DNA of 64,000 nucleotides. It comes from Oscillatoriales cyanobacterium. GTDB taxonomy: Bacteria > Cyanobacteriota > Cyanobacteriia > CACIAM-69d. Positions 1,424 to 53,054 of this stretch are shown here, piece after piece; position 1 is the stretch's first letter, and each line of letters begins with the position of its first letter. The translations under genes and the position numbers were made by a program. Location: contig RDXB01000035.1 of assembly GCA_004292515.1 (NCBI GenBank), forward strand, positions 1-64,000, in the 5' to 3' direction. The notes beneath the pieces are model-generated. The model was not told the origin of the DNA and searched no databases. It saw nothing but the letters and a program-made list of their open reading frames with translations.

Positions 1424-2203
1424 CTACATCCCAACGATGTTGTAGCCCGCATCGACATAGATCACCTGACCCGTGATGCCGCTCGACAAATCGCTGCACA
1501 GGAACGCCGCCGTGTTGCCCACCTCCACTTGGGTGACGGTGCGGCGCAGGGGGGCCGTTTCTTCCACGTGGTGGATCATATCCAAAATGCCGCCCACCGC
1601 CGACGAGGCCAGGGTGCGAATTGGGCCCGCCGAAATGGCATTTACCCGAATCCCCGTTTGGCCAAACTCCGTTGAAAGATAGCGCACACTGGCTTCAAGG
1701 GCCGCTTTAGCCACGCCCATCACGTTGTAGTTGGGGACGGCGCGGACGCTGCCCAAGTAGCTGAGGGTGATAATGCTGCCATTTTCATTCAGCAGGGGCT
1801 TGGCCGCAGCGCAGAGCTTGGTCAGGGAGTAGGCGCTGATGTCAAGGGCACGCACAAACCCTTCACGGCTGGTGTTGCTGAAGTCGCCGGTTAGTTCTTC
1901 TTTGCCCGCAAAGGCCAGGCAGTGGATCAAGATATCGAAGTTGCTCCACTTGTCCTGAATTACTTGGAAAGTTTCGGCCACCTGCGCATCGTCTTGGACG
2001 TTGCAAGGCACGAGGAAGGTGGGGTTCAAGGGTTCAAGCAGCTCGGCCACTTTCTTTTCGGCCTTGCCTTTGTCGTCGGGCAAATAGGTGGCGGCGATTT
2101 CTGCGCCAGCAGCATGGAGTTGTTGGGCAATGCCCCAGGCGATCGAGCGGTTGTTGGCGATGCCAGTGACGAGTGCCTTTTTGCCAGCGAGATTCAGCAG
2201 CAT
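1424..2203 (-). CDS. fabI: Enoyl-[acyl-carrier-protein] reductase (NADH)
   Basis: The enzyme performs the last reduction of each fatty-acid elongation cycle in the cytoplasm. The 259-residue protein is a short-chain dehydrogenase of FabI type. The nucleotide-binding segment ALVTGIANNRSIAWGIA is at residues 10-26. The FabI catalytic pair, Tyr-x6-Lys, is Tyr159 and Lys166 in NYNVMGVAKA, with the second conserved tyrosine at 149 (LSYLG). The length matches the family (about 258). The frame is open for 46 more codons upstream to 2341, but those residues are low-complexity and non-conserved, so the ATG at 2203 giving MLLNLAGKKALVTG is preferred. hisB follows downstream on the same strand. Confidence 0.96.
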   Translation of the reverse strand: MLLNLAGKKALVTGIANNRSIAWGIAQQLHAAGAEIAATYLPDDKGKAEKKVAELLEPLNPTFLVPCNVQDDAQVAETFQVIQDKWSNFDILIHCLAFAGKEELTGDFSNTSREGFVRALDISAYSLTKLCAAAKPLLNENGSIITLSYLGSVRAVPNYNVMGVAKAALEASVRYLSTEFGQTGIRVNAISAGPIRTLASSAVGGILDMIHHVEETAPLRRTVTQVEVGNTAAFLCSDLSSGITGQVIYVDAGYNIVGM

Positions 2204-2353: not shown

Positions 2354-2521
2354 TTAACATCCTCCCCAGCCGGTCGGCGTGGGGATTCCGGTTCTGGCCA
2401 AATAACCGAAGCTACTCAACTAAACCACGGGTTGACGCTTCATTGGCAGCCACCAGCGAACTGGATTTGCACTTGCCGCCACGTCCGTTTTGAGTCTGGG
2501 ACTGCCCGCCCACGATCTGGA
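2354..2521 (-). mobile_element. IS200/IS605-like right-end remnant, copy A
   Basis: Read on the minus strand, this 168-base block ends in a GC hairpin followed by ggggaggatgttaag. It shares blocks with the copies at 12231 and 26540: the motif aaaacggacg, then gaagcgtcaaccc followed by a TAG, then a hairpin and ggatgt(t/c)aa. One minus-strand frame ends ...NGRGGKCKSSSLVAANEA..., which resembles a TnpB C-terminal tail. I infer a fossil of a tnpB 3' end plus the element's right end, the part that in intact elements also encodes the guide RNA scaffold. Its right end points toward the fabI start, 150 bases away. Confidence 0.5.
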
Positions 2522-12230: not shown

Positions 12231-12391
12231 GCGGGCGGGCAGTCCGAGACTTAAAACGGACGTGGAGGCCAGCGCCAGCCTGGCTCCCCAGCAGCGGCCA
12301 ATGAAGCGTCAACCCACGGTCTAGCCGAGCAACCAATATTGTTCGGCTAGGGCCTGAATCCCCTCGCCTGCGGGCAGGGGAGGATGTCAAC
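12231..12391 (+). mobile_element. IS200/IS605-like right-end remnant, copy B
   Basis: Same family as the blocks at 2354 and 26540. It has aaaacggacgtgg, then ccaatgaagcgtcaaccc followed by gtctag, a hairpin (cccctcgcc / gggcagggg) and the terminal ggggaggatgtcaaca. A plus-strand frame from 12115 ends ...LKTDVEASASLAPQQRPMKRQPTV at this TAG, which resembles a TnpB C-terminus. The right end stops 18 bases before the grpE start codon, so the remnant probably forms part of the grpE leader. Confidence 0.5.
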
Positions 12392-12409: not shown

Positions 12410-13117
12410 ATGACCTACAGTCCCGAGGAAAACACCCCCCCCGTCGAAGCAGCCCCGGAAGCGGTTGCTGTGGATGCTACCGTCGATCCGACACCGGACG
12501 TGGCGATCGATCCCCCAGCCACCCTCGACGAGCTAGACCTGTCGGAAGTTGAGGGAGTGCCCGAAACTGCCAGCGCAGAGGCCACCTATCAGTCTCCATC
12601 CACTGATCTACTTCGGGAAATTGAAGGGATCAAAGGCCAACTCGAAGAGCGCACGGGGCAATACATGCGTCTGACGGCGGACTTTGAAAACTTCCGCAAG
12701 CGGACAGCGAAGGATCGCGAGGAACTGGAACTGCGGATTCGCTGCGATACGATTCGTGAACTCTTGTCGGTCATTGACAACTTTGAGCGGGCGCGATCGT
12801 TCATTAAGCCCCAAACCGATGGTGAACTGAATCTCCACAAGAGCTATCAGGGGATCTATCGCCAATTGGTCGATAGCCTGAAGCGCCTGGGTGTGGTCAA
12901 GATGCGCCCTGAGGGCCAAGAGTTCGATCCAAATCTGCATGAGGCGGTGATGCGCGAGCCGTCCAATGAGCATCCTGAAGGCACGGTGCTGGAGCAGTTA
13001 CAGGATGGCTACTTGCTGGGCGATCGCGTGCTGCGTCACGCCATGGTGAAAGTGGCAGCCCCCGGTGAGCCGGTGACGACGGCCGAGGAAAGCTACCAGT
13101 CAGACACGGAAGCTTAA
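12410..13117 (+). CDS. grpE: Nucleotide exchange factor GrpE
   Basis: GrpE is the cytoplasmic co-chaperone that releases ADP from DnaK. The 235-residue protein has an acidic, low-complexity N-terminus (residues 1-60), a long coiled-coil helix (LLREIEGIKGQLEERTGQYMRLTADFENFRKRTAKD, about 63-100) and the C-terminal beta domain with the signature HEAVMREPSNEHPEGTVLEQLQDGYLLGDRVLRHAMVKV. The start MTYSPEENT is the only ATG near the ORF start; its ribosome site is weak (gaag). It heads the DnaK-system block. I saw no CIRCE element (TTAGCACTC-N9-GAGTGCTAA) upstream. Confidence 0.96.
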   Translation: MTYSPEENTPPVEAAPEAVAVDATVDPTPDVAIDPPATLDELDLSEVEGVPETASAEATYQSPSTDLLREIEGIKGQLEERTGQYMRLTADFENFRKRTAKDREELELRIRCDTIRELLSVIDNFERARSFIKPQTDGELNLHKSYQGIYRQLVDSLKRLGVVKMRPEGQEFDPNLHEAVMREPSNEHPEGTVLEQLQDGYLLGDRVLRHAMVKVAAPGEPVTTAEESYQSDTEA

Positions 13118-26072: not shown

Positions 26073-26539
26073 TGTCGCTCCTCAAAACACCACACCAACA
26101 ATCACGCCATATCATATCAGCAAGCGTCAAATTGCCGTAGCAAACGACCGATGGCACTGAAATAGGCTCAGACGCTACGTTTTAGCGAATTTTTTTCGCT
26201 CTAAATCGAGCCAAATTACCACGCCCGATCGCGCTGTGATGGACTGAATGTCCTAGTCAGTTGATATGATTTCCTACGATTTCTGATGGTTATTGTCTTA
26301 CGGCAGCCTGCCTGGGAGCTGGGTGGTCAGCAACCAACATCCCCACTCACAGTCAGCTCAGGCTGCAATTGGTGTGGTGCGATCGGCCCCAGTCCCTCAG
26401 CCCCAGCCCCCACCCCAGTCCGTCCCCAGCCCGTCCCCAGCCACCAGGGTCAAACCCCCAGTTGCTCTCAGGGTTTGTTGGTGCAGTTAGCCTGTACCAT
26501 ATGATTCTGGGTACGGTGCAAGGGCAACCTTGCGAGTCG
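26073..26539. other. Intergenic murC-gap2, left part
   Basis: The murC promoter must lie here on the minus strand. A C/A-rich stretch (ccccagcc and cccagtcc units, 26388-26450) resembles a decayed low-complexity repeat. No reading frame is convincing. The right part of the gap is the element remnant at 26540. Confidence 0.4.
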
Positions 26540-26716
26540 TGGCCAAGCAGTCCAAGACTTTAAAACGGACGCAGCAGCCACAAAGTCGATCCAGTTTGCT
26601 GGAATCCAGTTCACTGGTGGCGGCTGGTGAAGCGTCAACCCGTGGTCTAGGTAAGTAGTTTTGTGGTTTGCCTAGGGCCAGCCCCCTCCCGGTTGCATCC
26701 CGGGGCGGATGTCAAC
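26540..26716 (+). mobile_element. IS200/IS605-like right-end remnant, copy C
   Basis: It shares with 2354 and 12231 the blocks aaaacggacg, gtgaagcgtcaacccgtgg followed by tctag, a GC hairpin (ccctcccgg...cccgggg) and the terminal ggatgtcaac. It is the most diverged copy, and its reading frames are broken. The right end stops 42 bases before the gap2 start, so gap2 transcription or its leader must involve this remnant or the short stretch after it. Confidence 0.45.
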
Positions 26717-26758: not shown

Positions 26759-27772
26759 GTGATTAGAGTCGCCATTAACGGTTTTGGCCGAATCGGTCGT
26801 AACTTCTTAAGATGTTGGTTGACCCGCCAAGATAGCCAGCTCGAACTGGTGGGCATTAACGATACATCCGATCCAAAAACGAACGCCCACCTGCTCAAAT
26901 ACGACACGATGCTCGGCAAGCTAAACGCCGACATCCAAGCCGACGAAAATTCGATTACCGTCAACGGCAAAACGATCAAGTGCGTGTCCGATCGCGACCC
27001 ACTCAAGTTGCCCTGGGCCGAGTGGGGTGTTGATCTGATCATCGAATCAACCGGCGTATTCGTTAGTGCAGAAGGTGCTTCTAAGCACATCCAAGCTGGC
27101 GCAAAAAAAGTGCTGATTACCGCGCCCGGTAAAGGCGATGGCGTGGGCACGTTCGTGATGGGCGTGAACGATAGCGACTACGACCACGACAAATTCAACA
27201 TCGTTAGCAATGCGAGCTGCACCACCAACTGCTTGGCTCCGGTGGTGAAGGTGCTGCACGAGAACTTTGGGATCATCAAAGGCACGATGACCACCACCCA
27301 CAGCTACACCGGCGACCAGCGGTTGCTCGATGCAAGCCACCGGGATGTCCGTCGCGCCCGCGCTGCGGCCATGAATATTGTTCCCACTTCGACGGGAGCT
27401 GCCAAGGCCGTGGCCTTGGTGTTGCCGGAAATGAAGGGCAAGCTGAACGGGATCGCGATGCGTGTGCCAACTCCGAACGTTTCGGTGGTGGACTTTGTGG
27501 CTCAAGTCGAAAAGAGCACGATCGCCGAGCAAGTGAACGATGCGCTGAAACATGCCGCAGAAAACCACATGACGGGGATTCTGGAGTACAGCGACTTGCC
27601 GCTGGTGTCTTCGGACTACAAGGGCACTGACGCTTCCTCGATCGTTGACGCTAGCCTAACGCTAGTGATGGGCGGCGACATGGTGAAGGTGATTGCTTGG
27701 TATGACAACGAGTGGGGCTACAGCCAGCGCGTTGTGGACTTGGCGGAACTGGTTGCCCGTAAGTGGAAGTAA
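26759..27772 (+). CDS. gap2: Glyceraldehyde-3-phosphate dehydrogenase, Calvin-cycle type
   Basis: This is the photosynthetic NAD(P)H-using GAPDH (Gap2/GapA type) that reduces 1,3-bisphosphoglycerate. The 337-residue protein has the NAD(P) fold start [18 protein letters not shown], the catalytic Cys154 in [12 protein letters not shown], the catalytic His in [11 protein letters not shown], and the C-terminal [15 protein letters not shown]. The start codon is GTG (26759); no in-frame ATG exists nearby and the frame begins exactly at the conserved N-terminus. A strong terminator follows. The upstream side is occupied by an element remnant. Confidence 0.97.
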
Positions 27773-52404: not shown

Positions 52405-52425
52405 TCATGTTGACATCCTCCCCTA
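52405..52425 (-). mobile_element. Isolated right-end of the IS200/IS605-like remnant family
   Basis: On the minus strand the sequence ends ggggaggatgtcaac, identical to the right end at 12377-12391. The tnpB-tail blocks are missing, and a 91-bp MITE begins 29 bases further on, so this is a truncated, reworked copy. Confidence 0.45.
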
Positions 52426-52453: not shown

Positions 52454-52544
52454 GGTAGTGCCGTAATTCAGTAACGATGAGCGGGTGAAAGCCTTGCAGT
52501 GTCAGCGATCTTTTTCTAAAAAGCATCACCTCACAGGCACTACC
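52454..52544 (+). mobile_element. 91-bp MITE, copy 2, with 8-bp target duplication
   Basis: Same ends and length as 13297-13387 (ggtagtgccgtaattcag ... cacaggcactacc). It is flanked by taggaatt on both sides (52446-52453, 52545-52552). The internal sequence differs from copy 1 at only a few bases. Confidence 0.9.
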
Positions 52545-52554
52545 TAGGAATTCA

Positions 52555-52659
52555 TTACCTGATCGCCCCTTCTAGTTGCGTTTTGGCAGCGGCGATCGCC
52601 TCATCCAGTTTGCTGGCATCGCGGCCGCCCGCTTGGGCCAGGTTGGGTTTGCCGCCGCC
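52555..52659 (-). pseudogene. Duplicated 3' end of alaS
   Basis: This 105-base block matches alaS positions 54538-54642 at 102 of 105 bases, in the same orientation and including the stop codon. It encodes [20 protein letters not shown]... to ...EGAIR. Two of the three differences are synonymous; one changes the last residue (Gly to Arg). It has no start and cannot work alone. Beyond 52659 the match ends abruptly. Confidence 0.9.
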
Positions 52660-52785
52660 ATCCCCGTTGTCCAACACTTTCTACGCACCGGCTAGCCGCC
52701 TTTTATCTAGGAAGGCAACGGCTGGTCTCAGTTCAAGCATGGTAGCCCTAATTCAAGAACCAAGATATAGTCAACTTTAAAAAAG

Positions 52786-52876
52786 GGTAGTGCCGTAATT
52801 CAGTAATGATGAACGGGTAAAAGTCTTATGGCGTAAGCAATCAGTTGCCGAAAACCATCACCTCACAGGCACTGCC
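52786..52876 (+). mobile_element. 91-bp MITE, copy 3, with 8-bp target duplication
   Basis: It begins ggtagtgccgtaattcag and ends cacaggcactgcc, one terminal base changed. It is flanked by taaaaaag on both sides (52778-52785, 52877-52884). The interior is more diverged than between copies 1 and 2. The stretch from here to the RTX start (53055) is AT-rich and without a gene. Confidence 0.9.
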
Positions 52877-53054
52877 TAAAAAAGTTACCATAAAAGTGAA
52901 GTTTACAAAATTTCACTTTTGTCAGGAATAGAGTAGCTTGACACTTTTTATCTCCGGAATTAGGCTACTATGAAGGTGATTTACCAATACTCGTTCCTTT
53001 GAGCTGTCTTCATATATCTTGAAAAGTTATCTTTGATAAGAGTCATTGCAACTT

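Follow-up and report, generated by a model that had tools for sequence, protein, structure and literature searches.

Probable remnants of tnpB-less IS200/IS605 mini-elements in the 5′ leaders of cyanobacterial genes

Three related blocks in a 64,000-nt stretch of an Oscillatoriales cyanobacterium genome (the window, meaning the whole stretch of DNA analysed; contig RDXB01000035.1) are probably remnants of mini-elements of the IS200/IS605 (IS1341-type) TnpB family that lack tnpB, sit in 5′ leaders and are carried in host mRNAs. Four aspects are directly supported: the family membership of the blocks, their RNA-like covariation, the insertions shared among species at gap2 and cpcBA, and the leader position. 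Comparison of the genome of the window (G000) with two congeners (G001 and G002) and three further genomes (G003, G004 and G005) reveals that the pattern is more general than the three blocks of the window.

The blocks and their parent elements

The blocks face fabI, grpE and gap2, and NCBIfam profiles confirm the identities that a preliminary description had given to these housekeeping genes. The relevant features of the window are:

1424–2203, minus strand: fabI (enoyl-ACP reductase; NF005615, 485 bits)
2354–2513, minus strand: block A, tnpB codons ~356–402 and right end (omega-RNA segment) of family I, 150 nt upstream of the fabI ATG; covariance model match of 159.7 bits (E 1.4e-38), 77% to TnpB 356–402 by tblastn
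12231–12390, plus strand: block B, tnpB codons ~362–402 and right end (omega-RNA segment), 19 nt upstream of the grpE ATG; covariance model match of 166 bits (E 2.9e-40), 73% to TnpB by tblastn
12321–12350, plus strand: long stem of block B, CTAGCCGAGCAA..TTGTTCGGCTAG, consensus helix 7 of 12 bp, from the RNAalifold consensus and a single-sequence fold
12360–12380, plus strand: right-end hairpin of block B, CCCCTCGCC..GGGCAGGGGA, then GGATGTCAA; consensus helix 8
12410–13117, plus strand: grpE (NF010741, 290 bits)
26481–26514, plus strand: gap2 promoter-like segment with TATGATTCTGGGTAC, 5′ of block C, with counterparts in G001, G002 and the insert-free G004
26539–26715, plus strand: block C, omega-RNA segment interrupted by a 17-nt insertion, 43 nt upstream of the gap2 GTG; covariance model match of 117.5 bits (E 1.7e-27)
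26759–27772, plus strand: gap2 (type I glyceraldehyde-3-phosphate dehydrogenase; NF005641, 708 bits)
52410–52423, minus strand: isolated right-end terminus GGGGAGGATGTCAA, a very short fourth fragment beside copies of an unrelated repeat, facing no gene start

The distance of 150 nt to fabI stands as first described, while those to grpE and gap2, given as 18 and 42 nt, are corrected to 19 and 43 nt.

Blocks A, B and C can be aligned over their entire length. As a genome query the grpE block matched 21 places at E 1.6e-79 to 0.007, several of them at ~80% identity across all 160 bases; the similarity of the blocks is therefore not due to chance, and the shared segment resembling a tnpB tail that had been noticed in them is real. 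Intact tnpB copies elsewhere in the genome (402 codons, in elements of ~1.4 kb) run directly into block sequence in the order ...DRDINAAINIQVAGGQSET...RGLVEQLRLFA, stop, right-end hairpin, GGATGTCAA, and the parent TnpBs match guided_TnpB NF040570 at 347 and 377 bits (cut-off 100). This continuity with the tnpB 3′ end bears out the earlier assignment of the blocks to IS200/IS605 right ends and to the omega-RNA part of tnpB elements, and the sequence comparison supports well their reading as right ends of one TnpB-carrying IS200/IS605 (IS1341-type) family. The true tnpB frame reads ...DINAAINIQVAGGQSET..RGLVEQLRLFA/V* and is broken in the window copies; its stop is the TAG ~10 nt before the right-end hairpin, and not that of the shared "tctag", the TAG noticed earlier. 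The hairpin of fixed position and altered sequence was correctly recognized, helix 8 being changed in both arms among the copies, as was the conserved terminus GGATGTCAA that follows it.

The left end of intact family I elements, by reading the sequence, comprises a terminator-like GCCCCGCCCT..AGGGCGGC hairpin and T5, then TATAAT just before tnpB. The TnpB of a second family (family II) is 44% identical to that of family I. Intact guided-TnpB genes occur in G000 and G002, and a search of G001 for a TnpB of family I or II found none. A search for Y1 transposases yielded a 68-bit match in G001 and a sole, weak match in G000 (L082 1456–2031), which reads like a REP-associated (RAYT)-like gene rather than an IS200 TnpA; present-day mobility is thus doubtful. 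An unrelated short repeat with ends GGTAGTGCC...GGCACTACC has two copies in the window (52455–52890, minus strand) and a third inside a tnpB relic, just upstream of the tnpB remnant (L006); it looks like a MITE family.

A genome-wide search with covariance model R1 found 22 places in G000, 27 in the two congeners (10 in G001 and 17 in G002) and one in G004, with no match in G003 or G005. About 25 independent copies without tnpB retain the omega-RNA segment, often with a common left edge that recurs at tnpB codon ~354–363 (fabI 356, grpE 362, gap2 of G001 361, C63p 361, peroxiredoxin 363, G004 360). The tnpB-less units of family II consist of a left end, 9–19 nt, the omega block and a right end. 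Both ends with no gene between them are found in the cpcBA, C63p, YjbQ, C25 and C6_225k copies, where the left end lies 6–19 nt before the block and scores above 200 shuffles. Family II mini-elements share this build with the tnpB-less units of family I. Blocks A, B and C gave no left-end match above shuffles and may therefore be plain truncations.

The consensus of 17 copies contains 48 pairs, 12 of them altered on both sides. Its covariation score is 0.225 against 0.156 for shuffled alignments, with 0/500 shuffles as high, a count that is not a probability, the 17 copies being kin. Covariation is lost on shifting the partner by 1–3 columns, and the 3′ terminus GATGTC pairs with GAGACTC close to the 5′ edge. 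These data indicate a multi-helix RNA fold with covarying pairs, of the kind and at the position expected of a TnpB omega-RNA. An Rfam scan of the window returned only two tRNAs and matched no curated cis-regulatory family, and the single-sequence fold stability of blocks A and C was nothing unusual against shuffles (z −0.8).

Position in leaders and sharing across species

The proximity of the blocks to sense gene starts, first noticed in the window, proved to be a genus-wide pattern. The count covered 25 independent loci that lack tnpB and have a callable neighbor. In nine of them the block ends no more than 50 nt from a sense start codon, compared with an expected 6.6% of loci (P about 2e-5); the 50-nt threshold was picked after the data were seen. 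Gene calls came from a home-made scorer, which missed the psaE and C14p starts, and these were placed by hand. Leaders with blocks this close include those of gap2, grpE, psaE, rpsT and a peroxiredoxin, as well as the cpcB–cpcA gap. The co-orientation that had been emphasized carries little weight by itself: 20/25 blocks are sense to the next gene, close to the 59–69% sense expected of random intergenic insertion (P 0.03–0.16). The loci common to at least two species are sense in 11/11 cases (P 0.003–0.017), and seven of these 11 lie within 50 nt (P about 1.4e-6 for seven or more).

The gap2 block is present in G000, G001 and G002 with a right flank that is 98% identical, and its orthology in the three species indicates an insertion older than their split. 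Upstream of it all three carry the promoter-like sequence TATGATT(C/T)TGGGTAC, and G004 has a counterpart of this sequence at gap2 without a block. The block thus sits between a promoter-like sequence and the start codon. A family II unit lies 34 nt before cpcA in the same three species (L208 2371–2595 in G000, G000:C70; orthologs in L297 and L298), where the cpcB–cpcA gap measures 291–292 nt, compared with 59–73 nt in the insert-free G003–G005. The left end of this cpcBA mini-element is a hairpin followed by TTTT.

Blocks found in G001 and G002 only lie before psaE (34 nt), psbV (114 nt), peroxiredoxin (29 nt), rpsT (30 nt) and five other genes. The psaE insert is located between a conserved leader and the ribosome-binding region and is absent in G000 and G004. 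Inspection of the psaE, psbV, peroxiredoxin, C63p, YjbQ and C14p loci of G000 showed the G001/G002 block to be absent from each. Upstream of psbV, G000 has a weak right-end-like block (E 0.0026; L306 2465–2560, G000:C49 68764–68859) ~18 nt away from the position in the congeners, by independent insertion or drift. The C14p block was considered as an ortholog of the G000:C61 block, with which it shares a neighborhood, but it occupies a different place and was not counted. Of the three species, G000 alone carries the fabI and grpE blocks, the same loci being empty in G001 and G002. Orthologous sites free of the insert were found in relatives for psaE, gap2, cpcBA, grpE and fabI. A promoter and terminator pattern scan before grpE found neither.

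Sequence evolution and competing explanations

Between G001 and G002 the blocks diverge by 5.3%, their upstream flanks by 4.9%, their downstream flanks by 2.5% and four-fold sites by 7.3%; given the upstream flanks and four-fold sites, the primary sequence of the blocks appears to drift at about the neutral rate. Their structure behaves differently. In the G001–G002 orthologous blocks, paired sites differ at 2.7% (21/776) and unpaired sites at 6.5% (52/802; Fisher 4e-4), a count that is symmetric between the species, since pairs standard in one species only would bias it. Rotation of the paired-site mask gave 0/5000 values as low. The contrast holds when the right-end hairpin is excluded (3.0% vs 6.5%, P 0.002), and 13/19 changed pairs still pair, against 0.27–0.44 expected. 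For the gap2 block, 37% of sites differ between G000 and G001 (four-fold sites 38.6%) and 15/22 changed pairs still pair, the contrast of paired with unpaired sites between these genomes being not significant (P 0.24). At cpcBA, G001 and G002 show no difference across the left end and flanks (0/152), whereas their omega cores diverge by 13%. Wholesale swapping of orthologous blocks by other copies was rejected for this species pair, the orthologs being closest matches, but smaller gene-conversion tracts between copies may have occurred. One pair of hairpins (G001:C89, L217, and G002:C6_91k, L236) differs in that one arm and the loop have given way to a reverse-complemented copy of the opposite arm; this change appears to be of the template-switch type, and some structural variation may thus be mutational. 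Overall, the structural signal may stem from host use, a role of TnpB, gene conversion among copies or palindrome repair.

Under the explanation that we favor, that of tnpB-less mini-elements carried in host leaders, each unit would have kept the TnpB guide-RNA scaffold segment and the right end while tnpB was lost, and units of two TnpB families would have lodged many times in the genus. Insertion would have relied on TnpA supplied in trans. A large share of the units lie in sense in a 5′ leader just before the start codon, so a host promoter should transcribe the scaffold within the leader. Survival could then reflect tolerance of sense leader insertions, a supply of omega-RNA from host transcription to TnpB made elsewhere, or both, and such omega-RNA would help the element to reach all chromosome copies. 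Mostly neutral decay would follow, with the stems decaying more slowly.

A plausible though less likely account holds that the blocks are passive scars, left when full IS copies in promoter-rich intergenic DNA lost their 5′ parts to deletion, the leader being the least harmful site for a leftover. Divergence equal to that of the upstream flanks, and in gap2 similar to that of four-fold sites, is consistent with such scars, as are the restriction of the fabI and grpE blocks to G000 and an orientation that by itself fits the null. Scarring would not, however, predict a left edge that in many loci coincides with the start of the omega-RNA, a family II left end joined almost directly to the omega block, the excess of blocks next to sense starts, or paired sites that change at 0.4x the unpaired rate after insertion.

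The last of these observations also bears on domestication, in which the host uses the folded block (cpcA, gap2, psaE) for tuning mRNA expression, stability or processing. This possible minority reading, which we hold to be rather unlikely, draws on the uniform orientation and closeness of the shared blocks, the constraint on pairs beyond the right-end hairpin, the changed pairs that still pair, and the retention of the cpcBA insert in three species. Moreover, stems on the G001 branch look no less constrained (11/637 vs 22/455, rough polarisation) in a species without a family I or II TnpB, which speaks against current TnpB-dependent upkeep. Set against it are the near-neutral primary sequence, the absence of most blocks from G000, the divergence of the cpcBA omega core between identical flanks, and template-switch palindrome repair, which could preserve pairs without selection and of which the hairpin pair above is one clear case. 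The suggestion in the preliminary description that the blocks were kept as leaders or small RNAs may accordingly hold, the one sign of upkeep being structural, but conservation as regulators was rejected as grounds for a strong claim of host function, since the grpE and fabI blocks are absent in the congeners and the primary sequence is near neutral. It is unlikely that the blocks are instead live selfish sources of omega-RNA, whose host-driven transcripts load TnpB made elsewhere, so that element-free chromosome copies are cut and the insert is fixed in the polyploid cell. The retention of the omega scaffold with loss of tnpB and its promoter, the intact guided-TnpB genes of G000 and G002, and the precedent of TnpB-driven spread between DNA copies, as described for plasmids (PMC11870625), would fit; the lack of a cognate TnpB in G001 and the altered scaffolds of window copies, such as the insertion in block C, do not. 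Repeated co-option of the guide-RNA scaffold as a folded leader of highly expressed genes (cpcA, gap2, psaE, psbV, rpsT), one that the cell's own TnpB could bind in trans, seems to us quite improbable.

Relation to known systems

TnpB guide RNAs are usually considered along with their tnpB gene, and standalone guide RNAs have been described for the related nuclease IscB. A literature search, with subscription papers mostly outside its scope, returned no earlier description of mini-elements that carry an omega-RNA segment and sit in 5′ leaders. The omega-RNA (reRNA) of ISDra2 TnpB (PMC8612924, PMC10278001) has the same position, from the tnpB 3′ end through the right end, and the same multi-helix fold as is predicted for the blocks, which differ in having no tnpB in cis. 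IS1341-type TnpB-only elements (PMC9956272) correspond to the intact copies described here, which span ~1.4 kb and have tnpB as the sole gene between their two ends, whereas the blocks lack tnpB. Free-standing IS605 stem-loops (PMC2775950) are likewise ends without an element, linked to genes, and their stems have been maintained through compensatory or G-U changes, but they are single hairpins at gene 3′ ends, whereas here a whole scaffold precedes start codons. Closer to the mini-elements are the palindrome-associated transposable elements (PATEs) of Haloquadratum (PMC3119063), and one ends-only IS605-derived element is reported in Halanaerobium (PMC7290912). PATEs as described are also IS605-derived, have no transposase gene, bear near-terminal palindromes at both ends, arose by deletion of the core and are thought to be mobilized in trans. 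Unlike PATEs, in whose description omega-RNA is not discussed, family II and several family I mini-elements keep the omega-RNA segment, and many units lie in 5′ leaders; window copies A, B and C, for their part, have no visible left end, where PATEs have both. The blocks are relatives of known short transposon leftovers; in this small group of cyanobacteria such blocks have repeatedly settled before heavily used genes, where the cell probably transcribes them. In the leaders of core genes for photosynthesis and housekeeping the scaffold has outlasted tnpB, two cases being common to three species. The blocks provide a natural set for asking whether host promoters yield guide RNAs that act in trans, whether such RNAs aid fixation in polyploid cells, and whether the host has recruited them.
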